Virus record (IMG/VR): IMGVR_UViG_3300020180_000475
Coordinates: 1 to 21,684 of that record
Strand: one strand, 5' to 3'
DNA length: 21,684 nt
Source of the DNA: a virus
Under the pieces are notes generated by a model that saw only the letters and a list, made by a program, of their open reading frames with translations, was not told where the DNA came from and did no database searches. Made by a program: the position numbers and the translations under genes. Positions 5,232 to 19,948 of the stretch are shown here, one piece after another (position 1 is the stretch's first letter; every line of letters begins with the position of its first letter).

Positions 5232-6483
5232 AGTTAGTATGCGCAGTGTTGAAGTTAAGCCGGGGCCGAATTGGTAGAAAGCCTTGGCCCTTGATAAACT
5301 GTACCTTGTGTGCAGATAGCAGTCCAGCCATAATTTCCCCTAAATGAGTCAGCTTCTCTAGGTCACGACTAACAAGTGGCCAGAGATGCGTCTCAATCTG
5401 CATGGGCGTTTCCGCCCGATCTAGTGCGTCCAGTATCTTCGTAGTAACATCGCTATTCCTCGCCTTACCAAATTCCCCCAATGCTTTCGGCATATAGAAC
5501 TCTGCCATTGTTAATATGCTGTTAGCGTATATTACACAATCGGAATTGATTTCTAAACTACCAGCACTAGCAGCGCAGACTATACAAAGTTTAAGGAGGT
5601 GAGTAAACCGTCTGCTATTATAGTGTTTAAATCTAATGTCCTTGAGGTCTGTTGGCTCTCGGTAGATATCCCCGAGTATGCTTCTTGCTTCTGTTGTGAG
5701 AGTAACTTCTCCAGCGAGTGTTGCGCGTATGGATGTAAGGCCAGCGACGATTGAATCTCTATCTTCAGTTGCAAGTGATGTTGGGAAGGGAATTCTTTTC
5801 CCACTTGGTTCAGAAAAGATAAGAAGGAGTCTGGAGAAGAATCCTTGTCCAATAACTTCAGGAGGGAACGCCATGCTGATACCAGTCGGTGTGTTACCGC
5901 CGAGAATGTTAATTGTGGGGTTTGGAATTCGGATACTTTTTCCAGTCTTAATTCTATTCCGATACATACCCCCGTAGTCCCAGAGGTTTGTAAGTAGATC
6001 GACGAACTCAACGTTGCCATGTCCAAGGAAGGCGTTGAACTCATCTGCGCATATAAGACAGTCAGAGGTTGCATTTATATCATCCTGGTCAGCATAAATC
6101 GAGGCAATAAACTCTTTGCCGCCCATATCACTAGGTATGTCCAAGATGCCATCTTCATCAAGCTTATCAAATCCTGTTTGTAAGTCAAGAAGAAACTTCT
6201 CTTTACTGCTTTTGTCTGCCGCAATTTTTTCATATCCGCTCAGTTGCAAGAAAGCTTTGCTATGCTTGATCGCAGTAGACTTCCTAGTGCCTGGATCCCC
6301 TACCAACATCACATACATGTTAGGGTAAATGTTATCTTGGCCAAAAGGTAAGTATACATTGCGTGCAAGAAGCGAAGCAATTGTTGTAAGTATTGACCAT
6401 CTGTGAAAGATGATCGGCGTCTCCGTATCAGCCTTGATATCTAAATACTGCTCAATCAAGCTATTTGCGGGGGTAAATAGCAA
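5206..6483 (-). CDS. DUF3987-like AAA+ ATPase, probable replicative helicase (TTG start)
   Basis: A 425-residue ATPase. Walker A is GDPGTRKS (G62 to S69, lysine K68). Walker B is CLICADEFNAF (D147, E148). A sensor-like asparagine sits in INILGGNTPT (N197), and a probable arginine finger in GFFSRLLLIF (R218). This order fits the DUF3987/VirE-like helicase domain that phages and plasmids often fuse to a primase. Here no primase domain precedes it, so the protein would only unwind DNA or load other factors. The start is TTG at 6483, supported by GGAGAG ending 5 bases upstream, inside the polymerase gene. The two genes overlap by 23 bp and are probably coupled. It is the last gene of the minus-strand block, and its 3' end runs 26 bp into the convergent virion gene. 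A TTG at 6459 is an alternative start. Confidence 0.85.
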   Translation of the reverse strand: MLFTPANSLIEQYLDIKADTETPIIFHRWSILTTIASLLARNVYLPFGQDNIYPNMYVMLVGDPGTRKSTAIKHSKAFLQLSGYEKIAADKSSKEKFLLDLQTGFDKLDEDGILDIPSDMGGKEFIASIYADQDDINATSDCLICADEFNAFLGHGNVEFVDLLTNLWDYGGMYRNRIKTGKSIRIPNPTINILGGNTPTGISMAFPPEVIGQGFFSRLLLIFSEPSGKRIPFPTSLATEDRDSIVAGLTSIRATLAGEVTLTTEARSILGDIYREPTDLKDIRFKHYNSRRFTHLLKLCIVCAASAGSLEINSDCVIYANSILTMAEFYMPKALGEFGKARNSDVTTKILDALDRAETPMQIETHLWPLVSRDLEKLTHLGEIMAGLLSAHKVQFIKGQGFLPIRPRLNFNTAHTNFSLLREYS

Positions 6484-8764
6484 GATCTCTCTCCGGTGCA
6501 GGTTTCATCTCAGACCAGCGGCTGCCAATCTTGAGTGCCATGGGGATCTTCAGTACTCTTTCAATACCCCGGTAATCTTTGACTGGCACTGAGAGTGTTG
6601 CCAGATCAACTACGCGCCAAGCTAGATCCATTCTATTAGCAAGAAACATAAAAAATATGCTATCGTGGATTTGTCCTTTTAATCGAAATGAAAGTGGGTT
6701 TGTATGTTGTATATTCCAGTATGTTGCTTTGAGGCCACGGTTGAGGATACCGACGGAAAGATTCTGAGGCCCATGCGCCACGTATTGGTTGAGATCAAGC
6801 TTGTTACCTTTCGGGTTCCCAAAGCAATAACGTGTCCACCCAAGGGGAGATATAAGTAAATGGGTAAGCCCAATGACATTCTTAATATGCGTATACCAGC
6901 CCCCTTTAACCTCCGGATATGCTTTTTCATATGTGCTTAAAAGATATTCTGCCACCATCTTCATGCTAAAGAATTCAGGCAAGCCTAACAATTTCTTGGC
7001 GCGAAGGATGTTAATCTCACCCATAGTATCAATGAGCACATTGGCGCCCATGTTATAGTTACTACCATGATTAACTCGCTTTGCCAGATCCCGAATATCT
7101 TTTGTTATTTCTGCGTATAGTACACCAAAAAACCTTTCTGCATTGAGCTTATGGTAATCAAGGGTGGATTCCACTGTAGCGATAAGATTCTTATCCCCAG
7201 ACAAATATCCAACTGCCCTAGCCTCCGCTTGCTCTCCATCGGCCTCTCCAAATAACCAGACTTGGCCGCTGCGGTGTATTCTTTTATCAGGAACATACAT
7301 TGATTTAACGTTATCGGGTTGATTTTGTATCTGAGAGCCTGACCAGGACGCTCCTTCAGAACATGAAAACCTACCGCTGTCGGTACCATCAGGGTTGAGG
7401 GCATAAAACACCCTGCCATCAACAACCAAAGGTCTCTGCCCTTTAGTACGTTTGTTATCTGGCTTAAGATATGTACTGATAACTTTTCTGTCCGCACGTT
7501 GCCCTTCTATCTCTCGCTTGAAGCGAGCATTAAGTGGGTGCATGTTAGCCCATCTTGACAAGGATTTTTCATCGGTACTTGTAACTTGCAACATACCGAA
7601 ACAACGCATTAGGTTTGCAACGTGAATGGGGCTGTTGCTATTAAACCCAGCGCCGAACCAAGATTCAAGTTGAACTTGTCTAGCATCTATTCGTTGCTGA
7701 TAGTATTGAACTAAGCGAGTACGTTCATCCCTATCTATCTCTAGCCCTTCTGTATTCATTGCCAAGATTGGCACCCAAAGTGGAAACTTCTCTACGAAGT
7801 TAGCCTTAGCCCAAGCGGGCATTTGTGCCACAAGGTTAAGGCATCCGACTACAGTTGCCCAGCCATCACGAGCGTTATACTCAAAGAGATTATCATCACC
7901 ACCAAATCTGGATTGATCTTTCCAATAATGAACATCTTTAATTGTAAAAGCGGCGATGAAGTCAAGTCGTTTAGGTAACTCTGAATACCAACTATGGAAT
8001 AAGGACTGAGTGTCAAAAAGATAGCTATGTACGGGAGCACCATAGCGCATGAGATGAAAAGAATCATAGAGTCCATTTTGCATTACTTTCGCCGTTGGAA
8101 GTCTGCAGAAACGCCGCAGCCAATATATCCAGTATACAGGGTCACTGCTGCGGTGTATCGGAATAACGACAGTGTGCGAAAGTAACTTCCCGTCGCTAAG
8201 CCAAAGCCCAGAAAAACAGCAACATTCAATGATGGTATGCTTGTTGAGGTAACTCCCATCCAGATTATATGTCTCGAACGAGTAAGTTTCAATGTCCACA
8301 CCCGTGAGAATCGCACTACGAAATTTATCATACCAGTTCTCCGCAGTAGAAGGAGTTAACAACTCCCATGTAAACTCTGGACTGAGCGGCCAGCTATCCG
8401 GGGCCGTAAACTTGCTGACAAAATGCTTAGCTATGAACTCACCATATGGCACTGAATACATCTGCCGCAGCGGGTTCATAGCTAAGATCTCAAGATCTCC
8501 ACGTTTCCAGCAAGAGCCATTCCAATTATCAATGCTCTGCTTTATAGGAAAATCTATCAGTTGATTGAGTACTACTTCGTTGGTGGTAATCAGATGTGTG
8601 AACTTATGTGCTTTGCAATACTGCGCCCACTCCGCCCCATTCTCACCGTTAACTAACACAGCTTTGGCGTTATGTCCACGTAGCAATGATGTAAGCTTTC
8701 CGATATACGGAGTATCATCAGGAGTTAATGCAATGAGAATATTACGGGGCGGAGTAGTTGTCAT
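6461..8764 (-). CDS. Family A DNA polymerase with 3'-5' exonuclease domain
   Basis: A 767-residue DNA polymerase of the Pol I/T7 type that copies the phage genome. The proofreading domain keeps all DEDDy residues: D157 and E159 (GVDIET), N230 and D234 (QNGLYD), Y296 and D300 (YNARD). The polymerase domain has TDSGRFS near 461, motif A EADGEQAEAR (D509, E514), motif B RDLAKRVNHGSNY (R558, K562, H566, Y570) and motif C QIHDS (H700, D701). No 5' nuclease domain is present, as in T7. The residue matching E. coli F762 or T7 Y526 is His566, which is unusual. The start is ATG 8764, because its TGATG overlap with the stop of the 51-residue gene upstream is typical coupling. A GTG at 8851 would give 29 extra residues lying wholly inside that upstream gene. 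The next gene overlaps by 23 bp. Confidence 0.95.
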   Translation of the reverse strand: MTTTPPRNILIALTPDDTPYIGKLTSLLRGHNAKAVLVNGENGAEWAQYCKAHKFTHLITTNEVVLNQLIDFPIKQSIDNWNGSCWKRGDLEILAMNPLRQMYSVPYGEFIAKHFVSKFTAPDSWPLSPEFTWELLTPSTAENWYDKFRSAILTGVDIETYSFETYNLDGSYLNKHTIIECCCFSGLWLSDGKLLSHTVVIPIHRSSDPVYWIYWLRRFCRLPTAKVMQNGLYDSFHLMRYGAPVHSYLFDTQSLFHSWYSELPKRLDFIAAFTIKDVHYWKDQSRFGGDDNLFEYNARDGWATVVGCLNLVAQMPAWAKANFVEKFPLWVPILAMNTEGLEIDRDERTRLVQYYQQRIDARQVQLESWFGAGFNSNSPIHVANLMRCFGMLQVTSTDEKSLSRWANMHPLNARFKREIEGQRADRKVISTYLKPDNKRTKGQRPLVVDGRVFYALNPDGTDSGRFSCSEGASWSGSQIQNQPDNVKSMYVPDKRIHRSGQVWLFGEADGEQAEARAVGYLSGDKNLIATVESTLDYHKLNAERFFGVLYAEITKDIRDLAKRVNHGSNYNMGANVLIDTMGEINILRAKKLLGLPEFFSMKMVAEYLLSTYEKAYPEVKGGWYTHIKNVIGLTHLLISPLGWTRYCFGNPKGNKLDLNQYVAHGPQNLSVGILNRGLKATYWNIQHTNPLSFRLKGQIHDSIFFMFLANRMDLAWRVVDLATLSVPVKDYRGIERVLKIPMALKIGSRWSEMKPAPERDLAIYPRK

Positions 8765-9340: not shown

Positions 9341-9793
9341 TCAGGATGCCAATGCAACGTTTCTGTACGAGGCGTACAGCTTGGTCTTGTCGTGAGCATC
9401 AGCACGATTACCAATAGTGGCTGTGATCTCTATGCCTTCCAGCTTTTCAAGCAGGCTCAGAACATCAGTCACAGCCAGTGCCTCGGCCAATGCGCCATAA
9501 CGCAACTTGATGACAGACAACGTCTTGTCAATCTTTTCAGGATCACCGAAGAAGAAGGCTTCCCCGCACAGTGAGCCAGCGGGTACTGGAACGTCTTCCT
9601 TGTCTGCCAACTCAAGCGTAGCCAAGACAGTGTACGTAACGCTGATTGCTGGCTTGTCTCCGATCTCTTTGGAAGTCACTTCGGTAATCATCAGCCGGTA
9701 TGAACCCGGTGGCGGCGTGATGAATTCCGGCAAGTCTGCGACTTCATCAAGCGGCTTTGCCAGGATGGACTGCAACAGCGACAGATCTGACAT
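9341..9793 (-). CDS. Probable phage single-stranded-DNA-binding protein, 150 residues
   Basis: ATG 9793 follows AAAGGAAAC. After a short N-terminal helix comes TPPPGSYRLMITEV, then KPAISVTYTVLATLEL, an acidic loop, SLCGEAFFFG and a helical stretch, ending with EGIEITATIG and LYASYRNVALAS. The 'PxGxYxxxIxeV ... ISVTYxV' opening and strand-rich layout are like phage SSB-type proteins of the DUF669 kind. The place directly after a Sak4-like ATPase and a nuclease gene also fits, since Sak4 proteins are known to act with an SSB. It has no acidic C-terminal tail as in bacterial SSB. The gene is richer in GC and in CTG, GAC and AAG codons than its neighbours and has its own terminator, so I infer high expression. 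The SSB call is moderate; the gene itself is certain. Confidence 0.8.
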   Translation of the reverse strand: MSDLSLLQSILAKPLDEVADLPEFITPPPGSYRLMITEVTSKEIGDKPAISVTYTVLATLELADKEDVPVPAGSLCGEAFFFGDPEKIDKTLSVIKLRYGALAEALAVTDVLSLLEKLEGIEITATIGNRADAHDKTKLYASYRNVALAS

Positions 9794-9881: not shown

Positions 9882-11063
9882 TTACTCCGTTGCTTCCAAC
9901 ACATTCTTTGCTAACGGTGCGGTAGGAATCTTCTCTCCCGGCTTTGGTTTCTTACCGCCGTGCTTATAAAACCATTCCGTCCAACTTCCCTTAAGCAAAG
10001 TTGCTGCATCCTTAGGACGAAACAGATGCAGTAGTGCTGGTATTTCCTGATCTTCAAGAGCGATGCCGCTACGGCTGCCAGTCTGAATGTTCCCAGCAAA
10101 AGTAGTGGCACTGTTATACGTATGCTTTCCGTTCACTACTCTAGTGAATACAACGGTGCCATAGTTTCTGGCAAAAGTCTTGCTGCTGTTATCACTGCCA
10201 GCCACAGCTGCAAGAGTCTTAACACCTGGTACTTCAGTCTCTACCATAGTCTCATGACTGATCCCAATAAAGTTACAATTAAGATCTTTGATGTAGTTAC
10301 CTAAGTTATCCATGATGTTCTTGAGACTGCCCCATTGATCTCGTTCGAACTTAAAATCTAACGGAGCTTCCTTGCCAGGAAAGAGTTGCTGTGTAATCTG
10401 GCGGCCCGCACTAGTAACGAATTGCGTCTGGCTATCCATCACAACAACCCAATTGTCTGGAAGCTGATTGAGTGCAAAGGTTGGCATGTTCTTACCTTCC
10501 TTCTTACACATGGGGCAGTCAACAATTCCGTGGTCAGTACACATGGTTATCTTCCGCCCAGTCACTACCTTAAGCATGGTGCGGACATACATTGGAGTAT
10601 CTGGAGTATCCAGAACCTTGAACGGAATAATGCGTTTGAGCAACTCAGGTGGCAGGTTGTCGTAAATAGCCTTGAGTCCCTTATCACCATCAAACCACAA
10701 GACATTATAAAACTCAGCGAGAATGCCAGCAGCAAGAGTCTTACCTGTCTTAGGCGGCCCGTATAAACAAACATGCTCTCGCTCCAGATCTCCTACGTCC
10801 ATCATGGTTGGTAATGACAGCAAACTGCTAGCCATTCCCTTGCGATCAAACACAACGGTTGTCTGCGGCTTAACTGCAACCGGTGCAAGGGATGCGGCAA
10901 CTACTATTGGTGCTACGGAAGTTGGTTCAATAGGCTCAATAGGCTGAACTTCTGGAGCTACAGTCTCAGGAACCTGTGCTTGTGCTCGCATCAATGTTAG
11001 TGCCCGCTCTGCTGCTATTCTAGCCTTGGCGGCAGCAACCTTAGCTTCTAATTCTGGAGTCAT
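9882..11063 (-). CDS. Sak4-like RecA-core ATPase (AAA_24 type), single-strand annealing/recombination
   Basis: A 393-residue protein. Walker A is GPPKTGKT (G102 to T109, lysine K108), after EHVCLY. Walker B is NWVVVMDS (D210). A sensor-type CNFIGISHE lies near 263-271. This matches the AAA_24/Sak4 group, phage RecA-like ATPases that assist strand annealing with an SSB. Between the Walker motifs there is a Cys/His knuckle CTDHGIVDCPMC (C175, H178, C183, C186) that could bind zinc. Residues 1-16 form a helix shared with two other proteins of the window. Residues 30-66 are a proline-rich linker (PIEPIEPTSVAP). The start is ATG 11063 with GAGG seven bases upstream, 8 bases after the nuclease stop, so it is in one operon with it. 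A nuclease, Sak4 and SSB set is typical of phage recombination cassettes. Confidence 0.88.
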   Translation of the reverse strand: MTPELEAKVAAAKARIAAERALTLMRAQAQVPETVAPEVQPIEPIEPTSVAPIVVAASLAPVAVKPQTTVVFDRKGMASSLLSLPTMMDVGDLEREHVCLYGPPKTGKTLAAGILAEFYNVLWFDGDKGLKAIYDNLPPELLKRIIPFKVLDTPDTPMYVRTMLKVVTGRKITMCTDHGIVDCPMCKKEGKNMPTFALNQLPDNWVVVMDSQTQFVTSAGRQITQQLFPGKEAPLDFKFERDQWGSLKNIMDNLGNYIKDLNCNFIGISHETMVETEVPGVKTLAAVAGSDNSSKTFARNYGTVVFTRVVNGKHTYNSATTFAGNIQTGSRSGIALEDQEIPALLHLFRPKDAATLLKGSWTEWFYKHGGKKPKPGEKIPTAPLAKNVLEATE

Positions 11064-11071
11064 GATAGCCT

Positions 11072-12142
11072 CTATCTAGGGTTGTCGATAAGATTACGTT
11101 GAGTGCTAATGATCTTGCTGATCTTGAATTGAAAATTCCAATCATAACTAAGAATCTCAGCATCTTCAACAGCCACAAAGTCTGCTCCTTGCGCTAGGTC
11201 ACACAAGCCAAAGTATTCACACACATAGCCGAAACGACTAACGCAATTATTACCTCGCTTCGGAAAGAACAAATGCGTGCGATAGTTATCTACTTGCTGA
11301 ATATCAAAAAACAATGTGTTCAACCAATCCGCACGATTGCTACGGAACTTTGGAAACTCCCAGTATTTGAAGTCATCTAAGGTAGTGACATAGCAGAGAT
11401 AGAACACATCATAATCCGAAACTACATCTAGACTATCAGCGATTTCGTCAAGGATAATGCTGTAGCCAGTTGCTTGTGGCGAATTCTTGTAGTGCGCTTC
11501 TTGTTGCTGCCTATTGCCAGTTGTCTTGATCTCAAGAACGCGTAAGCGTCCCGATGTCTTATGCCGTAGACACAAGTCCATGTGCCCCATGAAATAGTAG
11601 CCATTTTCCATGTCCACCAGCATCGACAATTCTGCTGCTGGCTTGGTCTCACCAGTCTCTTTATCAATGAAGTTAAAAACTTCCCACTCTCCGAAGAGGA
11701 TGGGAGCAATAGTCTGGAACTTCTCGATTGCGATGACACACTGAGTGAAACTCTTGTTATTTTTCTCTGGCTTGTAATCGAGTGGCAAGTCCCAAGCCAT
11801 GAACATATCATACCAGATCTGGTTCCAACTCTTACCAAGAAGGGTTGACTGTATGCCTGTCTCAAACGCACGACCGTATGCAAAATGCTCGTTGGTTTCT
11901 TCCCAGGAAACAGCTACCTTGAAACGCTCAGCTGACTTATACTTATTCAACTGAAACTTTCTAGGACACTCATAAAGAGCTTCCAAGGTAGAATAGCTAG
12001 TGACATTAATGCCGCGAGCCATCTCACGATACCGTCGCTGTTTAGAATCTTTTGCCTTGTTCGGACTGAAGTCAGTGCCACTAAATATGGGCGTGCCACT
12101 AAGTTTCAAAGCAAGATTGCTATCAAGATCGAGTGCCATCAT
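11072..12142 (-). CDS. PD-(D/E)XK nuclease of the Cas4/AddB-like kind, probable recombination exonuclease
   Basis: A 356-residue nuclease. The N-terminal motif is VTSYSTLEALYECPRKFQ (C59). The catalytic motifs are GHMDL (D189), VLEIKTT (E204, K206) and QATGY (Q223, Y227). Near the C-terminus are C300, C308 and C314 (CVSRFGYVCEYFGLCD). One Cys before and three after the nuclease core is the layout of the 4Fe-4S cluster in Cas4 and AddB nucleases, so a cluster is likely here, though the spacings differ. It probably resects DNA ends to give single strands for the Sak4-like ATPase next door. No CRISPR array or other Cas protein is present, so a CRISPR role is not suggested. The start is ATG 12142 (or the next ATG at 12139), overlapping the stop of the previous gene (ATGATG) with TGGAGTTAT as leader. 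Confidence 0.88.
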   Translation of the reverse strand: MMALDLDSNLALKLSGTPIFSGTDFSPNKAKDSKQRRYREMARGINVTSYSTLEALYECPRKFQLNKYKSAERFKVAVSWEETNEHFAYGRAFETGIQSTLLGKSWNQIWYDMFMAWDLPLDYKPEKNNKSFTQCVIAIEKFQTIAPILFGEWEVFNFIDKETGETKPAAELSMLVDMENGYYFMGHMDLCLRHKTSGRLRVLEIKTTGNRQQQEAHYKNSPQATGYSIILDEIADSLDVVSDYDVFYLCYVTTLDDFKYWEFPKFRSNRADWLNTLFFDIQQVDNYRTHLFFPKRGNNCVSRFGYVCEYFGLCDLAQGADFVAVEDAEILSYDWNFQFKISKIISTQRNLIDNPR

Positions 12143-12444
12143 AACTCCAGAATGTTATTGACGTTGATCTTTGTGCGCTTGTTAGCCTCTGCCTTCTGCT
12201 TTGCCGCAGTCATTTGCACAATGATAAGCCCCTTGTGACGTTGATGGATTTGCACAAGCATAGCAATTCCCTCATCATCTAGAAGGTGCGCTAATTCTTC
12301 ATGCGCTTGCATGTTCTTATGCAGATCTACCATTGCTTGCGGGATCAAAGGTACGCTAGTAGTTAGCATGCCCTTAAGAACTTCAAGCTGCCGAACCATA
12401 GCAATCACACTTGGATTGCTAATATCTGCCGTTTCTAGCATCAT
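12139..12444 (-). CDS. Hypothetical 101-residue helical protein
   Basis: ATG 12444 overlaps the stop of the preceding gene (ATGA) and follows AAGGTG. The protein is almost entirely helical with a basic C-terminal third (AAKQKAEANKRTKINVNN). It has no cysteine and no membrane segment. No family recognised. It lies directly before the nuclease gene, whose start overlaps its stop codon, so the two are coupled. A small accessory factor of the recombination cassette is possible but rests on position alone. Confidence 0.75.
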   Translation of the reverse strand: MMLETADISNPSVIAMVRQLEVLKGMLTTSVPLIPQAMVDLHKNMQAHEELAHLLDDEGIAMLVQIHQRHKGLIIVQMTAAKQKAEANKRTKINVNNILEL

Positions 12445-12668
12445 ATTTTCACCTTGCCGCTGCTAACAGCTTCTTCCGGCTTTATTTGTACGGCCAATTC
12501 AGTTGTCAGCACTACTGTCTTGAGCATCTTGTTTACATGTATGCCCGTGACTGCATGATATTGCCCGCTCTTAGTCGGACTAGCTAACAACAGTGCATAC
12601 GTATGAATATCTTTTGGGCCTTCAGACATATGCTTAGCAAAATTAAACAGTGTGATCGGTGGTTTCAT
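12441..12668 (-). CDS. Hypothetical 75-residue protein
   Basis: I choose ATG 12668 rather than the TTG at 12782 that a longest-frame rule would give. The longer form would overlap the zinc-finger gene 12671-12889 almost completely, whereas ATG 12668 lies three bases from that gene's TAG and has GGGAG just upstream. The protein starts MKPPITLFNFAKHM, contains HTYALLLASPTKSGQYHAV and ends EEAVSSGKVKI; it looks like a small alpha/beta domain. Function not recognised. Its stop overlaps the next ATG (ATGA). Confidence 0.72.
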   Translation of the reverse strand: MKPPITLFNFAKHMSEGPKDIHTYALLLASPTKSGQYHAVTGIHVNKMLKTVVLTTELAVQIKPEEAVSSGKVKI

Positions 12669-12670
12669 TT

Positions 12671-12889
12671 CTACTCCCAAGTACACTTGTGTTTGCGAGG
12701 TTCCCAAGTACGAGCACCGCACGCACGGCACTCTAAGACAGGTAACTTCTCGCCCCAAATACTGACGTGCCAAAGTCCCCAACTTACGCCAATGCCATGC
12801 TTACGAAAGACAGGGGAAGTGCGAGAGAGCCTCAAAATACTTGGCTTCCAACGCCATTCAAATCGTACTTTTATAACTTCCAGTTCCAT
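12671..12889 (-). CDS. Small zinc-finger-like protein, 72 residues
   Basis: ATG 12889 with a strong AGGAGA site 7 bases upstream. The protein is rich in Trp and Arg (VRFEWRWKPSILRLSRTS, VSWGLWHVSIWG) and ends in a possible zinc site, ECRACGARTWEPRKHKC (C54, C57, H67, C69). A basic, Trp-rich small protein with a Cx2C...HxC end may bind nucleic acid or a host protein. I do not recognise the family. It sits in a run of small coupled genes upstream of the recombination cassette. Confidence 0.75.
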   Translation of the reverse strand: MELEVIKVRFEWRWKPSILRLSRTSPVFRKHGIGVSWGLWHVSIWGEKLPVLECRACGARTWEPRKHKCTWE

Positions 12890-12915
12890 GATATTTCTCC
12901 TAGTAGTAACATCGG

Positions 12916-13329
12916 TTACTTCGGCTGTGCTCCGATATCATCGGGGTTGTTGGGATCATAGAACAATCCCTTGCCAACTTCCACACCAGAGCCCAGCTGG
13001 AAGTCAACATTTTGTTGCCGCTCATCAGCTATGCTATCTCGCATGGCACGAATCTGTGCGGCATTGTAGTCATTAGCTGTTCGCCGCTTGAGAGCTCTAA
13101 GCAACAGCGCGTATCCCAAAGCAGCGGGCATGCCTGATTGTACTTGCGTACCCAAGTATTCATTAAGCAGCACAAATGCGCTACCATCATCAAGCTTGAC
13201 TTGTGCAAACGCCAGCGCCGCATTAAGCTCCTTGTGATGCAACGTAAGTTCTTTTACAAACTCTATGTATACTTCTGGCATTACGGTAACAACAAACTTA
13301 CCTTGCCGATATACTTCTTGATCGCTCAT
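12916..13329 (-). CDS. Hypothetical 137-residue protein
   Basis: ATG 13329 overlaps the stop of the preceding gene (ATGA). The first half has two predicted helices and strands (KFVVTVMPEVYIEFVKELT), the middle is helical (ALGYALLLRALKRR), and the end is polar and acidic (YDPNNPDDIGAQPK). No known motif, no membrane segment, no cysteine. Function unknown; it belongs to the small-gene cluster. Confidence 0.75.
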   Translation of the reverse strand: MSDQEVYRQGKFVVTVMPEVYIEFVKELTLHHKELNAALAFAQVKLDDGSAFVLLNEYLGTQVQSGMPAALGYALLLRALKRRTANDYNAAQIRAMRDSIADERQQNVDFQLGSGVEVGKGLFYDPNNPDDIGAQPK

Positions 13330-13757
13330 GATTGCCTCGCAACAGTTCGTAATTCTTGAATCAATTCTGCGGAAACCCCTGCTTGTTCAAGGGAATAAGT
13401 AATCTGATACATCAATTGCTCTGCCCTAGCACTAGCTAACGCAACACTGTGCTCAGCAATTCCTTGTTGATCTTGCGCTTTGTTTGCGGCCCGCAATAGA
13501 CTAATAGCCTCATCTTTTGCAACAACAGCATATACCCAAGGAAGGATATCTACTACCATGGCAAACAACGATAGGACAGCTGGCACACTCTCCGCACTTA
13601 TCGTTGCGCTTCCAATGTGACTATAGCTGATTGCTATGTATTTCAGCACTCCACTAAGATCAACAAGATGAAGTTGTCCAACTAATTCTTCGGGAGTTTT
13701 CCCTAGGTGAGCAGCTATCTTGGTTCTAACTTCATCTTGCTTCTGTTTATAGTCCAT
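13326..13757 (-). CDS. Hypothetical 143-residue helical protein
   Basis: ATG 13757 shares one base with the preceding stop (TAATG) and follows AAGGAAC. The N-terminus (KIAAHLGKTPEELVGQ) looks like a small helical domain. The middle contains a hydrophobic run (AVLSLFAMVVDILPWVYAVV, about residues 60-79) that could be a membrane segment or a buried helix, and the rest is amphipathic helix. No family recognised. Confidence 0.75.
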   Translation of the reverse strand: MDYKQKQDEVRTKIAAHLGKTPEELVGQLHLVDLSGVLKYIAISYSHIGSATISAESVPAVLSLFAMVVDILPWVYAVVAKDEAISLLRAANKAQDQQGIAEHSVALASARAEQLMYQITYSLEQAGVSAELIQELRTVARQS

Positions 13758-14083
13758 TACAGTTCCTTGATTGCACGTATGCTGGTATCAAGAACCAAGC
13801 GGAACGTCAGTTTAACTGCGTATCCTTTGGCCGTTAAGTCACTTAGATTCGGGAGCGTAGGATCAAGAGGCTCAGCTGCGGAAGATAAAACATATCCAGC
13901 ATCTTTGCTATCATCCTTGCTTTTTTCTTTCTTTACTGCGTTGACAATGGTAAGGCTATCTGGGATAGAAGCATAAACACGTATGATGCGATTAGCCTTG
14001 AGCTGCGTCCACAGCTCTGCATACTTACGTTTCTTAGGCTGATCTAACTTAGCCAGTGCTTCATCCAGATCTTCCATAATCAT
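13757..14083 (-). CDS. Hypothetical 108-residue protein
   Basis: ATG 14083 overlaps the preceding stop (ATGA), with TGGAGTTAT as leader; ATG 14077 is an alternative. The protein begins with a charged helix (EDLDEALAKLDQPKKRKYAE), has RIIRVYASIPDSLTIVNAV in the middle, a lysine- and serine-rich loop (KKEKSKDDSKD), and ends with GYAVKLTFRLVLDTSIRAIK, which suggests a beta-rich end. No recognised motif. Confidence 0.75.
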   Translation of the reverse strand: MIMEDLDEALAKLDQPKKRKYAELWTQLKANRIIRVYASIPDSLTIVNAVKKEKSKDDSKDAGYVLSSAAEPLDPTLPNLSDLTAKGYAVKLTFRLVLDTSIRAIKEL

Positions 14084-14484
14084 AACTCCACGATCTTGTT
14101 GGGATCAATACGCTTTCCTATACGCGCCCGCGCAGCATCAATCTTAGCTTGCGTCTCTGGGCTAATTGATTTCTTAGCAGCATTAAACCCTGTTACTTGT
14201 TGAAGAACAGATGTAGGAACAATAGCGGCAGTAGGAACGATGGACCCAACCGGGATAGAAATAGGCTCAAACCATAGCCCATCTTTTCCACAGCCACCAT
14301 AGCCTACATGCGCCCTAGCATCTTCGCATGTTCTATGAACGAACAAGTTAGTGCCAGTAACAAGATCATACCCATCAAGATTATCGGGAGCAAAACAACG
14401 GAACCTAGACGAATCATAGGTTCCGTTAGTCGCAACCCAGCGACAGTTAACACAAAAATTTGGCTTGCTACCTTCGTCCATCAT
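14080..14484 (-). CDS. Zinc-ribbon-like protein with C-terminal shared helical module, 134 residues
   Basis: ATG 14484 shares one base with the preceding stop (TGATG); the ATG at 14481 is equally possible. The N-terminal domain has C11, C14 (NFCVNCRW), C30 (RFRCFAP), C53 (RTCEDARA) and C65 (GYGGCGKDGLWFE), a Cx2C-x15-C-x22-C pattern typical of a small zinc-binding phage domain. After a flexible Val/Pro linker (IVPTAAIVPTS), residues 107-122 (ISPETQAKIDAARARI) match the N-terminal helices of the Sak4-like ATPase and of the RecD-like helicase. This links the protein to the replication and recombination set. The biochemical role is unknown; an adaptor is my inference. Confidence 0.82.
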   Translation of the reverse strand: MMDEGSKPNFCVNCRWVATNGTYDSSRFRCFAPDNLDGYDLVTGTNLFVHRTCEDARAHVGYGGCGKDGLWFEPISIPVGSIVPTAAIVPTSVLQQVTGFNAAKKSISPETQAKIDAARARIGKRIDPNKIVEL

Positions 14485-14906
14485 CAGTCCAATATCTCAA
14501 AAGAAATAAAGCGCTTGGTTTCCGTAGGTATCTCACGGGAAAATATTACGCGACGCAGTGCTGGAGAATCCCCAACAGTCGTTATCTTGTAAACAATTGT
14601 AAAGTCTACGAAGTCATGAAACGCTTGAGTTAACTTCTTATCCGCGCTACGGATAACTGACAGATGATGATGCAACTTTGCTGCCATGTTCGCTGTCTCT
14701 GAATGCGTTTCGAACGTAAGCGCAACCCTGCGGCCCAGCTTAAGCGTAGCATAGATGTCTTTAACAGACATGCCAGGATCAATAGCCTCTGGCACATGAA
14801 CATCTGCCATGATCTCATTGTACGCCGCTGTCTGCGCATCTTCGGCAGACTGTTCAGCACATACAGTGCAAGTTTCAAAGTCATTACCATGCTGGCATCC
14901 AGTCAT
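14484..14906 (-). CDS. Hypothetical 140-residue protein with N-terminal Cys/His cluster
   Basis: ATG 14906 overlaps the preceding stop (ATGA), and AAGGAAAC lies upstream. The first 16 residues hold C4, H6, C13 and C16 (CQHGNDFETCTVC), a possible small zinc site. The remainder is alpha/beta with DPGMSVKDIYATLKLGRRV, LTFETHSETANMAAKLHHH and a C-terminal strand region (RRVIFSREIP, RFISFEILD). No family recognised. It is directly coupled to the zinc-ribbon gene that follows. Confidence 0.77.
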   Translation of the reverse strand: MTGCQHGNDFETCTVCAEQSAEDAQTAAYNEIMADVHVPEAIDPGMSVKDIYATLKLGRRVALTFETHSETANMAAKLHHHLSVIRSADKKLTQAFHDFVDFTIVYKITTVGDSPALRRVIFSREIPTETKRFISFEILD

Positions 14907-15253
14907 ACAGTTTCCTTCTTCTTTGGGGTAACACTAACATCCATGCCTCTGTTATCATCAATGATAACATGCCCATGAATAACAGAATCTTCTATGCCTT
15001 TATCTCCCAACGGACGAAGCTCAATTTCCAGTGTACAGAATTCTTCGACTACTCGCATTACTATAAATGGGCCAAGTTTGACTGGTAGCTTAAAACTTAA
15101 AGCAACCAATGGATGCGTTTGATACGTTAGCCGCTTACAATCTTCACAGTGACTGATATCAGAAAGCACTGAAGCAAGCTCTCCGTTTAACGAGGAAAAA
15201 TTGCCCGTCATATTCTGATAGATAGCAACGTCTCCAGCTTTGAAGTGGCCCAT
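14903..15253 (-). CDS. Hypothetical 116-residue protein with SH3-like start
   Basis: ATG 15253 with AGGGAATT just upstream. The opening FKAGDVAIYQN followed by LNGELASVLS looks like a small beta barrel of the SH3 or KOW type, and C36 and C39 (HCEDC) could form half a zinc site. The C-terminal half is strand-rich (RVVEEFCTLEIELRPLG) with a basic end (TPKKKETV). Function unknown. It opens a long chain of overlapping small genes. Confidence 0.77.
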   Translation of the reverse strand: MGHFKAGDVAIYQNMTGNFSSLNGELASVLSDISHCEDCKRLTYQTHPLVALSFKLPVKLGPFIVMRVVEEFCTLEIELRPLGDKGIEDSVIHGHVIIDDNRGMDVSVTPKKKETV

Positions 15254-15280
15254 TTTAATTCCCTAATGGTAAAAAGTTTT

Positions 15281-15457
15281 TTACAGCTGAATTGTTGGGA
15301 TATCAGTTTCAAATTCCACGGCACGGACTAACATCCGCACTAGTGCAAAGTCATGCTTGTCCATGCTTATTTGTTGCAGCTTTGAGTTCCTAACTGCATT
15401 AAGAATTACGATCAGACGCGCACGGTCTGCGTTGGCAAGTTCTGAAGTGAGTTTCAT
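15281..15457 (-). CDS. Hypothetical 58-residue helical protein
   Basis: A short gene below common length cut-offs. ATG 15457, TAA 15283-15281, with AGGAG 7 bases before the start. The protein is compact and helical, with LTSELANADRARLIVILNAV, then SMDKHDFALVRMLVRAVE and a polar end (TDIPTIQL). It has the even mix of charged and aliphatic residues of a real folded protein. It is the first gene after the 275-bp non-coding gap. Family unknown. Confidence 0.75.
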   Translation of the reverse strand: MKLTSELANADRARLIVILNAVRNSKLQQISMDKHDFALVRMLVRAVEFETDIPTIQL

Positions 15458-15502
15458 GGCAAGGCTCCTGATAAGACTATTGTGTGTTATGAAGTACTAC
15501 GA

Positions 15503-15534
15503 GGAAAGACTACTGCGGAAAGACTACTGCGGAA
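15503..15534. repeat. Tandem repeat, 14-bp unit, 2.3 copies
   Basis: GGAAAGACTACTGC occurs twice in a row without mismatch, then GGAA starts a third copy. A degenerate copy (GAAGTACTACGAG) lies directly before, at 15491-15503. Confidence 0.85.
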
Positions 15535-15721
15535 CATTAATGCATACTCGGTAGTTTTCGTAAACAGAACACATACAACATGCCGATCTAGGCTAAAATT
15601 GTGTTCGTTCGCTACTTACTACCGGGTAGACACTACCTTAGCTGGGAGTCTAGGGATCCAGACCTATTACCTTTACTAGATTCAATCTGCGATGCCTTGC
15701 GCCATACTAAGTTACTACCTG

Positions 15722-15731
15722 CCCGGCCGGG
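15722..15731. repeat. Perfect GC palindrome CCCGGCCGGG
   Basis: A 10-bp perfect palindrome, two bases past the stop of the GTG-start gene on the minus strand. It is not followed by a T-run, so it is not a standard terminator. It could be a binding site for a dimeric protein, or chance. Confidence 0.5.
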
Positions 15732-15732
15732 G

Positions 15733-16023
15733 TTAGGGAACGATGTTTGCTGCTTTCAGCACTCTATCGTCATATATCGGCTGCATGAAATGGGCGACAT
15801 AATCATCCCAGTCAACGTTATTATTTTCAACAAGAAGAATCTGAGCAACAAACAACAGTTGCTTATCTTCACTGTTAAACCTTCGAAGGATTGGTGTGAT
15901 CTCAGCATGACCAGTTATATATACGCTGTATTGGCGCAATACACGTGCCTCTTCGGCTGGAATAGAATCTTCCGAACACTCAAGAATAAGGGCGCTGTTT
16001 GCAATATTGATTGTACCATGCAC
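15733..16023 (-). CDS. Hypothetical 96-residue protein (GTG start)
   Basis: I choose GTG 16023 because a strong AGGAG lies 7 bases upstream. The longer frame from ATG 16158 would begin inside the preceding gene and read through a hairpin. The protein starts (V)HGTINIANSALILECSED, followed by AEEARVLRQYSVYITGHAEI, PILRRFNSEDKQLLFVAQIL and a C-terminal part rich in Asp and Tyr (VDWDDYVAHFMQPIYDDR). It looks like a small alpha/beta protein. No family recognised. It is the second gene downstream of the strong promoter at 16979-17007. Confidence 0.72.
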   Translation of the reverse strand: MHGTINIANSALILECSEDSIPAEEARVLRQYSVYITGHAEITPILRRFNSEDKQLLFVAQILLVENNNVDWDDYVAHFMQPIYDDRVLKAANIVP

Positions 16024-16080
16024 GTTATTTCTCCTGATAGGATTGTTAGGAAAGCTGGCAGCAATTGCGTTGGCAATCAC

Positions 16081-16118
16081 CAACAAGCGCCTATCAATAT
16101 TCCGACTGGCGCTTGCTG
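16081..16118 (-). other. RNA hairpin between the 258-residue orphan and the GTG-start gene
   Basis: On the minus strand CAGCAAGCGCC pairs with GGCGCTTGTTG: 11 bp with one G-U pair and a 16-base loop. No T-run follows, so it is not a classical terminator. It could stabilise the 3' end of the orphan mRNA or be a processing site. Confidence 0.55.
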
Positions 16119-16138
16119 TTGATAGTGCTAACTTGCTC

Positions 16139-16915
16139 TTACAGCTCAGTGATCTCATCCACCTTCAGGAAGCTAGTGACACGAGTCTTGAGATACTCGT
16201 ATACTGTCTGAAAGTCATCCCCGTTTTCGGAATTAACAAGCCAGATATCCAGCAGACCATCCAACTGCGTAAGCAAGTCTTGTCGGGCGCGAATGCTGTT
16301 AACGCGGCCCACCAAGATAGCAACCAACTGATCCACAGTATCGCTACTGCGACGCTTGCCGCTGGCAGTGAGTGGCGCATTGTCTGCAAGCATGATAACC
16401 TTGAAGTCTGCGCCGAAGGCTTCCAGCATTTCCTTCGTGATGCCTGAGCCACGCTCGCTCTTCGGCATGTTGGCAATAGCCTCGATGGTCAGCTTCGACA
16501 CATCGATCATACTGGCTTCCAGCACGAAACTCATTGCTGTGAAGTTGTCATCAGGAATCAAGCTGCCCACCTGATTCTTGAGAACATTGAAGATCTGATC
16601 ACGAACAGAATCCATCACGAAACTACTGATCTTCGGATCTTGCATGCCAGCAAGGATGCCTGCCAACGTTGGTACTGGAATATCCAGCTTGAACGCACCG
16701 CGCTTCCAATCCTTGGTGATGACCCCTTCAGGCGACTTGATTTCCCGAATCTTGCGGAAGTTGACAGTAGCGCTTTCGGTGTTGGCAAGCGGGTCCGTGC
16801 TAACGCTGACGTTGGGAACATCAGTTGTTGCGCTGATCATTGCGCCGGCGCCTTCAACTGCGTACATCGGGAACATGCCAGCAAACATTGCATTCAACAA
16901 AGTATTGCGTTTCAT
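16139..16915 (-). CDS. Unrecognised 258-residue protein, predicted highly expressed
   Basis: ATG 16915 is chosen because TGGAGTTAT lies directly upstream and the promoter's start point falls near 16972. A longer frame from the TTG at 16987 would begin inside the -10 box. The N-terminus MKRNTLLNAMFAGMFPMYAV is mildly hydrophobic but is not a clear signal peptide. Then come a strand-rich part (ESATVNFRKIREIKSPEGV, GAFKLDIPVPTLAGIL), a helical centre (VMDSVRDQIFNVLKNQV, SKLTIEAIANMPKSERGSG), a basic loop (TASGKRRSSD), helices (QLVAILVGRVNSIRARQDL) and an acidic end (KVDEITEL). No cysteine and no catalytic motif is visible. GC and codon choice (CTG, AAG, GAC, ATC) are stronger than in its neighbours and like the SSB-like gene. 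With its own promoter this suggests an abundant structural or DNA-coating protein, by inference. Confidence 0.82.
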   Translation of the reverse strand: MKRNTLLNAMFAGMFPMYAVEGAGAMISATTDVPNVSVSTDPLANTESATVNFRKIREIKSPEGVITKDWKRGAFKLDIPVPTLAGILAGMQDPKISSFVMDSVRDQIFNVLKNQVGSLIPDDNFTAMSFVLEASMIDVSKLTIEAIANMPKSERGSGITKEMLEAFGADFKVIMLADNAPLTASGKRRSSDTVDQLVAILVGRVNSIRARQDLLTQLDGLLDIWLVNSENGDDFQTVYEYLKTRVTSFLKVDEITEL

Positions 16916-16978
16916 TTTGATAACTCCAGTTAGGATATTACTAGGGTTTGGATGCATTGGTTTCCGCATCGTAAAACA

Positions 16979-17007
16979 AGTATACAATAGCCGCCGGCCT
17001 TTGTCAA
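16979..17007 (-). promoter_or_regulatory. Strong sigma-70 promoter
   Basis: On the minus strand TTGACA (17007-17002) is separated by exactly 17 bases from TATACT (16984-16979). The -35 is perfect and the -10 differs from consensus at one base. Transcription should start near 16972, giving a 5' leader of about 57 bases before ATG 16915. The TGA stop of the preceding gene lies inside the -35 box. Confidence 0.88.
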
Positions 17008-17192
17008 GAGGGTGGTCGACAGCTTCGCAGCACTTTCAAAACTTTAGCCACTGCCGTAGCATGTTGTCTTGTGACTATCTTCCACAGTCCGTAGGCACTT
17101 TTAGGCGTAGCCGCTTTTACTACCGTGCCATTACTTCCAATACAGTGCCATTGTCCTTTGTGCAAGAACAAGTTAGGCTTCCCTTTAATCAT
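17004..17192 (-). CDS. Small hypothetical protein, 62 residues
   Basis: I choose ATG 17192, which overlaps the preceding stop by 8 bp. A GTG at 17213 would add 7 residues but has no ribosome binding site. The protein begins MIKGKPNLFLHKGQWHCIGS and continues with ATPKSAYGLWKIV and a basic C-terminus (HATAVAKVLKVLRSCRPPS). 'KPxLxxxxGxWxC...TPxxAYxxW' is, from memory, a common pattern in small phage proteins of unknown role. Its TGA stop is part of the TTGACA box of the next promoter, so the end of this gene and the promoter are locked together. Confidence 0.75.
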   Translation of the reverse strand: MIKGKPNLFLHKGQWHCIGSNGTVVKAATPKSAYGLWKIVTRQHATAVAKVLKVLRSCRPPS

Positions 17193-17466
17193 TGCCGGGC
17201 TCTTGATAGTCACAAGTGTTTATCATGAATATCAACGCATCATCATAGTACTGTCGAAAGCCTGTTGAAAACCTTATAGCTCCCGTTGATGCTGGCACTG
17301 TCATCGGTCGATCAAACTTGATGATGTACATACCCTCATCGTCAAGAACAAGATCGAATACAATTGTGGCAGACCCCTTGCTACCAGTACAACTAGCAAG
17401 GATGTCCCGATTCATGCTATCCTTTCCTAACGAAACATCTGACTTAAACTCTTTAAGTATGTTCAT
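17185..17466 (-). CDS. Hypothetical 93-residue protein
   Basis: ATG 17466 overlaps the stop of the protease gene (ATGA), with GAGG upstream. After a charged start (MNILKEFKSDVSLGKDSMNR) the protein is strand-rich: SATIVFDLVLDDEGMYIIKF, PASTGAIRFSTGFRQYYDDA and LIFMINTCD. It looks like a small beta fold. No family recognised; no catalytic motif. Confidence 0.75.
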   Translation of the reverse strand: MNILKEFKSDVSLGKDSMNRDILASCTGSKGSATIVFDLVLDDEGMYIIKFDRPMTVPASTGAIRFSTGFRQYYDDALIFMINTCDYQEPGND

Positions 17467-17903
17467 TCTGTGTCATCCTCATAAGTCATGCGATTGAACG
17501 CATCGATAATGATGCGCTCTTTATCTGTTGCGAACTTAGTGGTATTAATCCTAGACAAGCGATCAGGGGAAAGTTCCATAACATCGTTCATAACCTCTTT
17601 CCACTTCAAGCCATGTCCACGATCACCGAACAAATCAAAAGCAACTTGATGTGCAACTTCGTGCGGGATAGTAATGTCCAAGATCTCCCGCATTATTGCC
17701 GGCGTATCAGAGCTTAGATACACCGGGTTAATCGCCACTCTGCGCCGATTAAAATAACACATGCCAAGCACTCTTTGGGAGCGTAAGGCATAGTCCAGAG
17801 CTGGCTTGATACCTAGCTTAGGATCGTAACGATAGAACTGTCTTGCACATTCCCACGCACGATCAAGAGAAGCTTGCGCCGCTTGCTGAAGGTGTGCTGG
17901 CAC
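17463..17903 (-). CDS. SprT-like zinc metalloprotease
   Basis: A 146-residue protein with the signature HEVAH (H81, E82, H85) followed by GHGLKWKEVM (H97, W101), the HExxH...HGxxW pattern of the SprT/Spartan family. The C-terminal zinc ribbon of bacterial SprT is absent, and the protein ends in an acidic tail (YEDDTE). Family knowledge: Spartan cuts proteins cross-linked to DNA, while the substrates of phage versions are mostly unknown. It lies between the RecD-like helicase and small genes, which suits a role in DNA maintenance. The start is GTG 17903, because no ATG, GTG or TTG lies further upstream in the open frame; its ribosome binding site is weak. The next ATG overlaps its stop. Confidence 0.87.
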   Translation of the reverse strand: MPAHLQQAAQASLDRAWECARQFYRYDPKLGIKPALDYALRSQRVLGMCYFNRRRVAINPVYLSSDTPAIMREILDITIPHEVAHQVAFDLFGDRGHGLKWKEVMNDVMELSPDRLSRINTTKFATDKERIIIDAFNRMTYEDDTE

Positions 17904-17935
17904 TGTGAGTGCTAGCTTAATCCGCAGCGACGCAG

Positions 17936-19948
17936 CTACTTTTTTGGCAAATTTTCCTCGGCTTCGGTATCATTTCTTTCATAGTACTCTTTAAGATCAT
18001 CTTGAATATCCTCTTCAGTATCAGGACCATCAACAAGATCAGTATCTTGATCAGACATTTTCAAGATTACCTCTTCAGTAGTATCTGACATGCCAAGCAA
18101 TCTTTGCTTAGTTTCCTTTGCCTTGTCAGTTGCCATCCTACCTTTGAAGTACTCTGCCTTCTCGGCTAAAGTATTGCCTTTGATGCGTTGGCTTTCTACG
18201 CCAATCACAAAGCTTTCCGGTTCGCAAATTATGTGTAACTCTTTTTGCGCGCGTGTAATAGCAGTATATACCATCTCACGCTGAAGCTTTGTGTTATGAC
18301 TGTTATGAAAGATAACGTATACTTTACGCCATTGACTGCCTTGACTCTTATGCACCGTAAGCGCATAACCCATCAATAGGTTATTTACTTCCCCGGCAGT
18401 GCTAATCGTGAATGTTTCCTCTTCACCGTATTTCCGAACAGTTATAGCATGACTGCATTGGTTCTTTATTTCTTCCGCATCCTTGCCGATAGCAGTACTA
18501 GCAAGCAAGGCATCAATATCCATAAATCCTTCTGCGTCGGTATCTGTCTGATCTATCATCCTACGGTAACCGCCCCAACGATCCATATGCACACTTTCGC
18601 GTCTTGTATGCCTGCCAACATAACGTTCGTTTCGTTTGATGCTAACTATCTCCGCTTCCTCTCGCTCAAAGAATACCTTGTCCCCGACTGCAAAGCAGTG
18701 TTTAAACTTGCCGCTGATTACTTCAAACACTACGCGGTTATGCTGAATCGAAAGAAAATCCGCGATATAGTTATTGATATCGATACTACCAACGCCCACA
18801 TTGAACGGCACAAGAATCATATCCGTCTCAGGAATATATTTCCCCGCTTCTATCTCAGACTTAAAGAACTGAGACAGCTTGATCAGGGTAGTTAGCTTGC
18901 CGTTTTCTCCGGTAAGCCTCTCGCTTAAGAATTGAAAGGTAACCTTGCTACCATCTTCCTCTCCATTCCATATATCAGCACACTCTTTTCTAGCAAGCGC
19001 TCGAATCTTATCTAGATTCTTAGCGAACTTCGTACCGCGATACTGCAGCATACTGCGCAATGCTGGTATCGTGTTTCCGGTACGGATATGGTTTGCCAGA
19101 TTAACAATGCGCCCCGCATGTCGATAGACTTCTGTCAGCTCTATCACGGGCAATTCTAGCAACTTGTATCCAAGTATCGCAGGCTCAAATATCGGTGGAA
19201 GTTGCGCTAAGTCACCTATGAAGATAAACTGCGCATCTGTATTGCTGATAGCATCCAGTAGCAACTGATACATTCCGGTGCCGACCATGCTACTTTCATC
19301 GATTATAAATACCTTGAGTTCGCTGCAAAGAGGCTTAATCCTATTTCGGCTAGGCTCGAAATTCATAATTGTCTTAGGTCTGCCAGTCTCTTCGTTGATA
19401 GTCTCATAAAAGACTGGCTGGAATTCTAACAATTTATGTATCGTATGAATGTTATGCTTGATATCTGGTGGGACATTACCCTTCAGATTACGCGTGGCAA
19501 TCCGTGTAAAGCTTCCGCCCCATATTCCGGGCGTACCGCCATGCATATACTTATGTTCGAAGCCTTTTGGTATGATTGGAATTCGTCCAAGATGCATCAT
19601 AGCCCGAACGATAGCATACGTGGTAGTAGTCTTGCCAGTGCCCGCTGGTCCCATGAGACAGCCACTAACCCCTTCAATGCCGAACATTTGAACAGCTTTA
19701 CGTTGCTGTTCGTTTAGGACGATACCGTTGATGGTGAAGAAATCGAACGGAACACCTTCCTTAATAAGCGGTGTCCCAACTACAGGTTCCGGCGCAGGCA
19801 ATGCTTCCACCGCATCTTGCACTGCTAATGCCATGATGCTAGGCATTATTGGCGCAGACTCTGGCTTGCTTGCCTGCGCCCGCTCCAGAATACGCTTACG
19901 CGCAGCCTCGATTAGTAACTCCATTTTAGGACTAATGCTTGATGCCAT
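17936..19948 (-). CDS. RecD/Dda-like SF1 DNA helicase
   Basis: A 670-residue helicase. Q motif LNEQQRKAV (about 78-86), Walker A GPAGTGKT (G100 to T107, K106), motif Ia FTRIATRNLKG, motif II FIIDESS (D217, E218), motif III FIGDLAQLPP (G245 to P252), motif IV LTEVYRH (R276), motif V GYALTVHKSQGSQW (527-540) and motif VI YTAITRAQKE (R566). The stretch VGDKVFFEREEAEIVSI sits where RecD2 and Dda have an SH3-like insertion. It should unwind DNA 5' to 3' during replication or recombination. Residues 5-20 (ISPKMELLIEAARKRI) are the shared module, followed by a proline-rich linker. The last 50 residues are strongly acidic. The start is ATG 19948, one base after the previous stop, with GGAG upstream; a longer frame to 20032 would overlap that gene. 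Confidence 0.93.
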   Translation of the reverse strand: MASSISPKMELLIEAARKRILERAQASKPESAPIMPSIMALAVQDAVEALPAPEPVVGTPLIKEGVPFDFFTINGIVLNEQQRKAVQMFGIEGVSGCLMGPAGTGKTTTTYAIVRAMMHLGRIPIIPKGFEHKYMHGGTPGIWGGSFTRIATRNLKGNVPPDIKHNIHTIHKLLEFQPVFYETINEETGRPKTIMNFEPSRNRIKPLCSELKVFIIDESSMVGTGMYQLLLDAISNTDAQFIFIGDLAQLPPIFEPAILGYKLLELPVIELTEVYRHAGRIVNLANHIRTGNTIPALRSMLQYRGTKFAKNLDKIRALARKECADIWNGEEDGSKVTFQFLSERLTGENGKLTTLIKLSQFFKSEIEAGKYIPETDMILVPFNVGVGSIDINNYIADFLSIQHNRVVFEVISGKFKHCFAVGDKVFFEREEAEIVSIKRNERYVGRHTRRESVHMDRWGGYRRMIDQTDTDAEGFMDIDALLASTAIGKDAEEIKNQCSHAITVRKYGEEETFTISTAGEVNNLLMGYALTVHKSQGSQWRKVYVIFHNSHNTKLQREMVYTAITRAQKELHIICEPESFVIGVESQRIKGNTLAEKAEYFKGRMATDKAKETKQRLLGMSDTTEEVILKMSDQDTDLVDGPDTEEDIQDDLKEYYERNDTEAEENLPKK

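Follow-up and report, generated by a model that had tools for sequence, protein, structure and literature searches.

Phage replisomes are usually described by the enzymes that they comprise and less by what holds these enzymes together. The locus examined here raises the latter question directly: three unrelated proteins of a phage replication block carry a similar 16-residue segment which, according to the original prediction, is a mobile docking helix, and we ask whether this segment is a genuine module and what it is likely to bind. The DNA analyzed (hereafter, the window) is the whole of the 21,684-base virus record IMGVR_UViG_3300020180_000475, probably a genome fragment, with the same gene order as Polaromonas phage Tiera, Aeromonas phage P5 and Pseudomonas phage PaMx41 (Fredfastierviridae); all coordinates given below are on the minus strand. 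Translation yields exactly MTPELEAKVAAAKARI at residues 1-16 of the Sak4-like ATPase (11016..11063), ISPKMELLIEAARKRI at residues 5-20 of the Dda/RecD-like helicase (19889..19936) and the tag-like helix ISPETQAKIDAARARI, the weakest of the three, at residues 107-122 of a Cys-rich (zinc-ribbon) protein (14119..14166), in agreement with the original prediction. The start codons fit because the upstream gene stops just before the helicase ATG at 19948, and AGAGG precedes the Sak4 ATG at 11063. The carriers are the Sak4-like ATPase/annealase (9882..11063; phrog_124 Sak4-like, E 6.6e-13; AAA_24, E 2.2e-11), the Dda/RecD-like SF1 helicase (17936..19948; phrog_325 Dda-like helicase, E 5.9e-57; Pfam AAA_30 and UvrD_C_2) and the zinc-ribbon protein (14080..14484), which was recognized by its sequence and has no Pfam or PHROG match. 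The predicted Pro/Val/Ala-rich linkers were found in all three proteins: approximately 10830..11015 between the Sak4 tag and the ATPase core (the AAA_24 match begins at residue 97), 19718..19888 between the helicase tag and the helicase core (an approximate end, the Pfam core starting from about residue 82 of the translated stretch), and 14167..14262 preceding the zinc-ribbon helix.

The ungapped pattern common to the three proteins has only these three matches in the six frames of the window and none in 300 shuffled window proteomes. In an all-against-all comparison of ungapped 16-mers from the 21 window proteins, the Sak4 and zinc-ribbon segments form the best pair (score 48, the maximum in 60 shuffled proteomes being 44) and the helicase and zinc-ribbon segments the second best (41); the Sak4/helicase pair, with a score of 34, is by itself within chance and not significant. 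At the DNA level, the copies have indeed diverged, with 31/48 identical bases for Sak4/zinc-ribbon, 29/48 for helicase/zinc-ribbon and 20/48 for Sak4/helicase. We also compared the copies with a profile of 17 columns that was trained on the N-termini of 78 related helicases, with the window excluded. The Sak4 and helicase tags match this profile, built from other phages, in the originally proposed register, with 15.2 bits (shuffle p 0.002) and 13.3 bits (p 0.009), respectively. The zinc-ribbon segment scores 0 bits, so the case for this copy is its close similarity to the Sak4 tag, together with the C-terminal helices of the orthologs in L009 and L168, which are only loosely similar to the tag; judging from the sequences, it probably, though not certainly, belongs to the same module.

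Single window proteins used as queries against viral contigs gave no matches, and family alignments were needed: with those of the polymerase and the helicase, 160 IMG/VR loci were gathered, and 12 close Sak4 relatives were added later. A scan of GTDB genomes gave 418 matches, the best 80 of which included a single full-length relative, a phage contig located in a Coxiella MAG, and this contig was added as well. Most of the approximately 78 non-redundant helicase orthologs have an N-terminal tag followed by a variable Pro/Ser/Thr/Ala-rich linker. The profile consensus is a basic amphipathic helix, K-x-[RK]-[LFM]-A-E-[LI]-[LI]-A-[KA]-A-R-A-[KR]-K, in which A9 and R12 are the most informative positions. 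The tag sequence is degenerate, and the linker is slightly more diverged than the tag, so that the contrast in conservation between the two among the helicases is modest. Helicases of L105, L108, L120 and L125 lack the tag. The exact 16-residue pattern has no matches among the 747,213 amino acids of the related-protein set, which at first resembled a refutation; the orthologous termini, when read directly, show a diverged version. At the tag position, the helicase orthologs have MNPKLQQLIAEAKARS in L085 and a diverged version, ALNPRVQQIIEQAKLRN, in L177, whereas the Sak4 orthologs begin with NPAVQKILDDAKAKA in L007, L009 and L165 and with NPAVAAALAKAKAAT in L168. Since L168 and L177 are one record, one other phage shares the N-P register on both Sak4 and the helicase. 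Among orthologs, the tag is thus retained by many helicases and by most of the close Sak4 relatives (it is absent from those of L006, L169 and L170), whereas for the zinc-ribbon protein the likeness is loose and confined to the nearest relatives.

Across the clade, the tag is evident at the level of sequence not only in helicases: it recurs on different enzymes, prefers termini, and has moved both between termini and between enzymes. Among 3340 non-helicase proteins, there were 53 profile matches of at least 14 bits compared with 4.8 in shuffles, and 18 of at least 18 bits compared with 0.6. Within the terminal 50 residues, matches accumulate at the N-terminus of the family A DNA polymerase (8, with 0.05 expected), the C-terminus of Sak4 (7, with 0.05 expected) and the N-terminus of the PD-(D/E)XK exonuclease (3, with 0.1 expected); the profile search over the relatives thus places the tag at the extreme termini of all three. 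By contrast, the structural-strand genes are near background (3 matches in 1568 termini, 0.75 expected). Comparison of terminal with interior densities controls for ordinary amphipathic helices: with near-duplicates collapsed, there are 41 matches in 166,260 terminal positions versus 10 in 445,281 interior ones, an 11-fold difference, which reaches 34-fold for the polymerase, exonuclease and Sak4. In 79 loci of cellular genomes, the 2 matches in 2672 termini, against 5 in shuffles, represent background. In unrelated proteins of the phages, the motif occurs above the background rate.

Individual genomes show the same. In L099, the tag is present on the helicase N-terminus, polymerase N-terminus, exonuclease N-terminus and Sak4 C-terminus, and in L103 on the helicase, the polymerase, the exonuclease and one further protein. 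The L178 genome, which was outside the training set and served as an out-of-sample case, gives 24.1 bits for the helicase, 17.8 for the polymerase and 12.1 for the Sak4 C-terminus. The Sak4 tag is C-terminal in relatives and N-terminal in the window's own subclade. In the window itself, the polymerase (6461..8764, assigned by Pfam) has no tag, and neither does the N-terminus of the exonuclease (11072..12142, also by Pfam); profile matches identify N-terminal tags on the polymerases of several relatives and on the exonucleases of L099, L103, L106 and L174. Two other groups of matches, at the C-termini of p450 (PNKLAFLKAKLRW) and of the exonuclease, resemble conserved helices of the respective families (in the exonuclease family, the C-terminal helix is tag-like) and were rejected as added tags and not counted as evidence. 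The hopping of the tag between enzymes and termini within one phage clade amounts to a natural experiment in the spread of a recruitment motif. Moreover, any terminal match in the clade is a candidate, so the tag provides a direct handle on unknown replisome members from sequence alone.

The helical module on unrelated replication proteins, at either terminus, therefore extends far beyond the window; docking, the other part of the original prediction, fits these observations, and we infer that the tag forms a helix and that its carriers share one binding partner. The 16-residue segment would be a short linear docking element, namely, an amphipathic helix of basic character tethered by a disordered Pro/Ala/Val-rich segment, carried N-terminally by the helicase, the family A polymerase and the PD-(D/E)XK exonuclease and at either end by Sak4, the C-terminal part of the zinc-ribbon protein being a probable further carrier in the window. 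Binding of the tags to one shared surface would gather unrelated enzymes at the same DNA, and the tether would leave their catalytic domains free. A shared protein-docking function, with the single-stranded DNA-binding protein (SSB) as the leading but not proven receptor, appears to us a reasonably probable reading.

The most likely partner, although we would put our confidence at a little short of even, is the acidic PrgE-like OB-fold SSB (9341..9793; net charge -9) encoded between sak4 and pol. If so, the tagged enzymes would be delivered to SSB-coated single strands. The protein is acidic, whereas the tags are basic (median net charge of +3 per tag, +1 to +3 in the window), and the family contains a conserved acidic N-terminal segment, LDxLLDxxLDDLxDLPEF; the SSB itself shows no tag match in 101 orthologs. 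The SSB-like family has no Pfam match and no significant sequence match in the PDB (one at E 0.5); nevertheless, the label SSB-like, proposed from the sequence, holds given that the family AF2 model (m9a3fa97bb9cc) is an OB-fold with the best PDB match, and closest solved structure, in PrgE (8s4s, E 3.9e-05). Against this reading, the SSB is also present in L105, L108 and L125, which are among the loci with tagless helicases. Docking was modeled for this one candidate partner as a single chain, using a natural read-through in L093, where a single frame runs from the tagged Sak4 C-terminus across a short gap into the SSB. In the model, the tag is helical, with a pLDDT of 86 in its core, compared with 54 in the linker and about 97 in the SSB; this rise over the tag is compatible with docking but is not proof of it, since a free helix could give the same. 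Tags from the same genome are no more alike than those from different genomes (p 0.81), so there is no sign of concerted evolution of the tags or of genome-by-genome co-evolution with a receptor, another point against the docking reading.

Among the partners originally offered, the polymerase is disfavored, since it carries an N-terminal tag itself in several relatives and is thus unlikely to be the receptor; the SSB is the best candidate, and the 258-residue orphan (16139..16933) is neither excluded nor supported. That the docking helix has a receptor other than the SSB, be it this orphan, the DUF3987 primase/helicase, the small conserved 108-aa protein or a host replication protein, seems unlikely. 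The primase, the orphan and the 108-aa protein are essentially never tagged, as befits a receptor: the primase and the 108-aa protein have no tag matches, and the orphan has none with the 17-column profile and two weak, alanine-rich ones with a 12-column profile. The orphan, which ends in DEITEL, is in addition acidic and apparently well folded (AF2 mean pLDDT of 82.7), with a fold that lacks a PDB relative (best E 0.6), so that no known hub fold was found in it. On the other hand, the orphan was not detected in several tagged genomes, among them L128, L132-L134, PaMx41 and Tiera, although distant homologs may be missed, and positive evidence points to none of these candidates.

Less likely still is direct, non-specific DNA binding by the tag, as a basic helix that raises the DNA affinity of the enzyme with no protein receptor involved. 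The basic charge of the tags and the fact that every carrier acts on DNA agree with this possibility, but the hydrophobic positions 4, 7 and 8, together with alanine 9, are as informative as the basic positions, as expected of a helix that packs on a protein, and the charge of the window tags is low. We regard as very improbable that the tags bind each other, in a helical bundle or coiled coil, and assemble the enzymes without a separate hub: despite the amphipathic hydrophobic spacing and the occurrence of several tags per genome, the tags are all basic and would repel each other, and many genomes have a single clear tag, on the helicase. A chance or compositional resemblance of Ala/Lys/Arg-rich terminal helices without a common function, as could be suggested by the degenerate tag sequence and by the Sak4/helicase pair score taken alone, is similarly improbable and already disfavored, considering that composition-preserving shuffles, natural interior segments and cellular proteins all fall below the observed rate and that the out-of-sample L178 genome confirms the tag.

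Docking on the SSB, the reading that we prefer, is not without parallel. Some examples of RPA32C ligands share an I/L-S/T-x6-I register with the tag, which we take only as a lead. The 32C domain of RPA binds a basic motif of XPA, Rad14, UNG2, SMARCAL1, TIPIN and NEIL1 (PMC11387677), so that, as in the phages, a short basic motif in a flexible or disordered region is found in several unrelated DNA-processing enzymes, and there it docks on an acidic surface of a ssDNA-binding protein. The receptor, however, is the winged-helix domain of RPA32, whereas the phage SSB model consists only of an OB-fold and an N-terminal helical segment. Because no winged-helix receptor was found on the phage SSB model, and no RPA in the window, the phage tag would work like the RPA32C-binding helix but is no member of that family. 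If the SSB is the receptor, these viruses of bacteria would have arrived convergently at a counterpart of RPA32C recruitment. A phmmer search of two tags against PDB chains gave no match at E 10, peptides this short giving little power. Another relevant case is the hub formed by the C-terminal tail (DDDIPF) of SSB: in phage HK620, Sak4 docks on, and requires, its cognate SSB on ssDNA, with the SSB tail as the ligand (PMC5928155). There, as proposed for the present phages, the SSB acts as a hub through which Sak4 and other enzymes reach ssDNA, but the polarity is reversed, the SSB carrying the peptide in that system and the clients carrying the tag in the phages described here; an acidic/hydrophobic C-terminal tail is absent from the candidate SSB, which ends in NVALAS in the window and without an acidic tail in the family. 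PrgE, the closest fold to the candidate hub, is an OB-fold ssDNA-binding protein of plasmid pCF10 involved in conjugation, and its N-terminal tail matters for assembly, which bears comparison with the conserved acidic N-terminal segment of the phage family; unlike the candidate hub, it is a conjugation protein, and a docking helix of client enzymes is not among the features described for it in the parts of that report available to us (PMC11137577). A QLxLF-type hydrophobic peptide, the bacterial sliding-clamp-binding motif, occurs in none of the three tags, nor in the profile consensus. In the literature on phage linear motifs, as far as covered, which included few subscription journals, we found no description of such a tag.

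A second shared feature of the block is a C-terminal tail with an I-x-E-L ending, which was read from the sequences of four window proteins, namely, the 101-aa protein (INVNNILEL, 12142..12168), the 108-aa protein (TSIRAIKEL, 13760..13786), the zinc-ribbon protein (IDPNKIVEL, 14083..14109) and the 258-residue orphan (LKVDEITEL, 16142..16168), and in none of 3193 other C-termini. Within a genome, the last residue of the four families agrees in 65% of cases versus 46% after shuffling (66 genomes; none of 2000 shuffles reaches this value), an agreement that is inflated by kinship. Conceivably, although we consider this doubtful, the two features make up a code for replisome recruitment comparable to that of RPA in eukaryotes, in which the mobile basic helix would bring the helicase, polymerase, nuclease and annealase to the PrgE-like SSB, while the C-terminal tails (I-x-E-L in the window and different acidic-hydrophobic endings in relatives) would serve as another tag, one that marks a separate group of small partners; the zinc-ribbon protein, which has both tags, would link the two groups. 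Overlap of stop and start codons as the full cause of these tails is rejected in general, since hydrophobic C-terminal ends are common throughout the four families and mostly occur without an ATGA overlap. In three of the four I-x-E-L genes of the window, the last codons coincide in part with a Shine-Dalgarno-like sequence belonging to the next gene, and the tail codons of the 101-aa protein overlap both the start and the Shine-Dalgarno-like sequence of the gene that follows; such overlaps with Shine-Dalgarno-like sequences may account for some of the E-L ending in the window.

The window encodes four small proteins, unrelated to one another, that share the C-terminal end I-x-E-L: those of 101 and 108 amino acids, the zinc-ribbon protein and the 258-residue orphan. 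Their tails finish in ILEL (12142-12168), IKEL (13760-13786), IVEL (14083-14109) and ITEL (16142-16168), all on the minus strand. This ending was found in none of the 3193 other C-termini in the related loci and, across the four protein families, the last residue covaries within genomes. The signal is in part confounded by overlap of the tails with the ribosome-binding site of the next gene. The orphan itself (16139-16933) is conserved in 66 loci, and its structure was modeled confidently (pLDDT 82.7), with no fold match to the model in the PDB; its relatives end in EDLLANL-type tails.

The SSB family of these phages (9341-9793, minus strand, in the window) has no Pfam match and is predicted by modeling to adopt an OB-fold whose nearest structural match is PrgE of plasmid pCF10; the family alignment contains a conserved acidic N-terminal segment, LDxLLDxxLDDLxDLPEF. 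In a Coxiella-associated phage contig (L178), two non-SSB proteins (L178:15659-16051 and L178:11779-12354) have the C-terminal ends DFDDDIPF and YPDIPF, which resemble the bacterial SSB tail; these proteins are possible SSB-tail mimics that would recruit host SSB-binding proteins.

In the window, the SprT-like protein (17463-17903) is encoded on its own. Helicase-sized proteins of relatives (L081, L101, L109 and L111) match the SprT family, which suggests a helicase-SprT fusion. The family A polymerase is divided between two reading frames in three close relatives (L006:5531-7978, L169:4822-7572 and L170:4787-7221); the two parts are separated by a gap or a small ORF, possibly representing a split gene or an inserted element.
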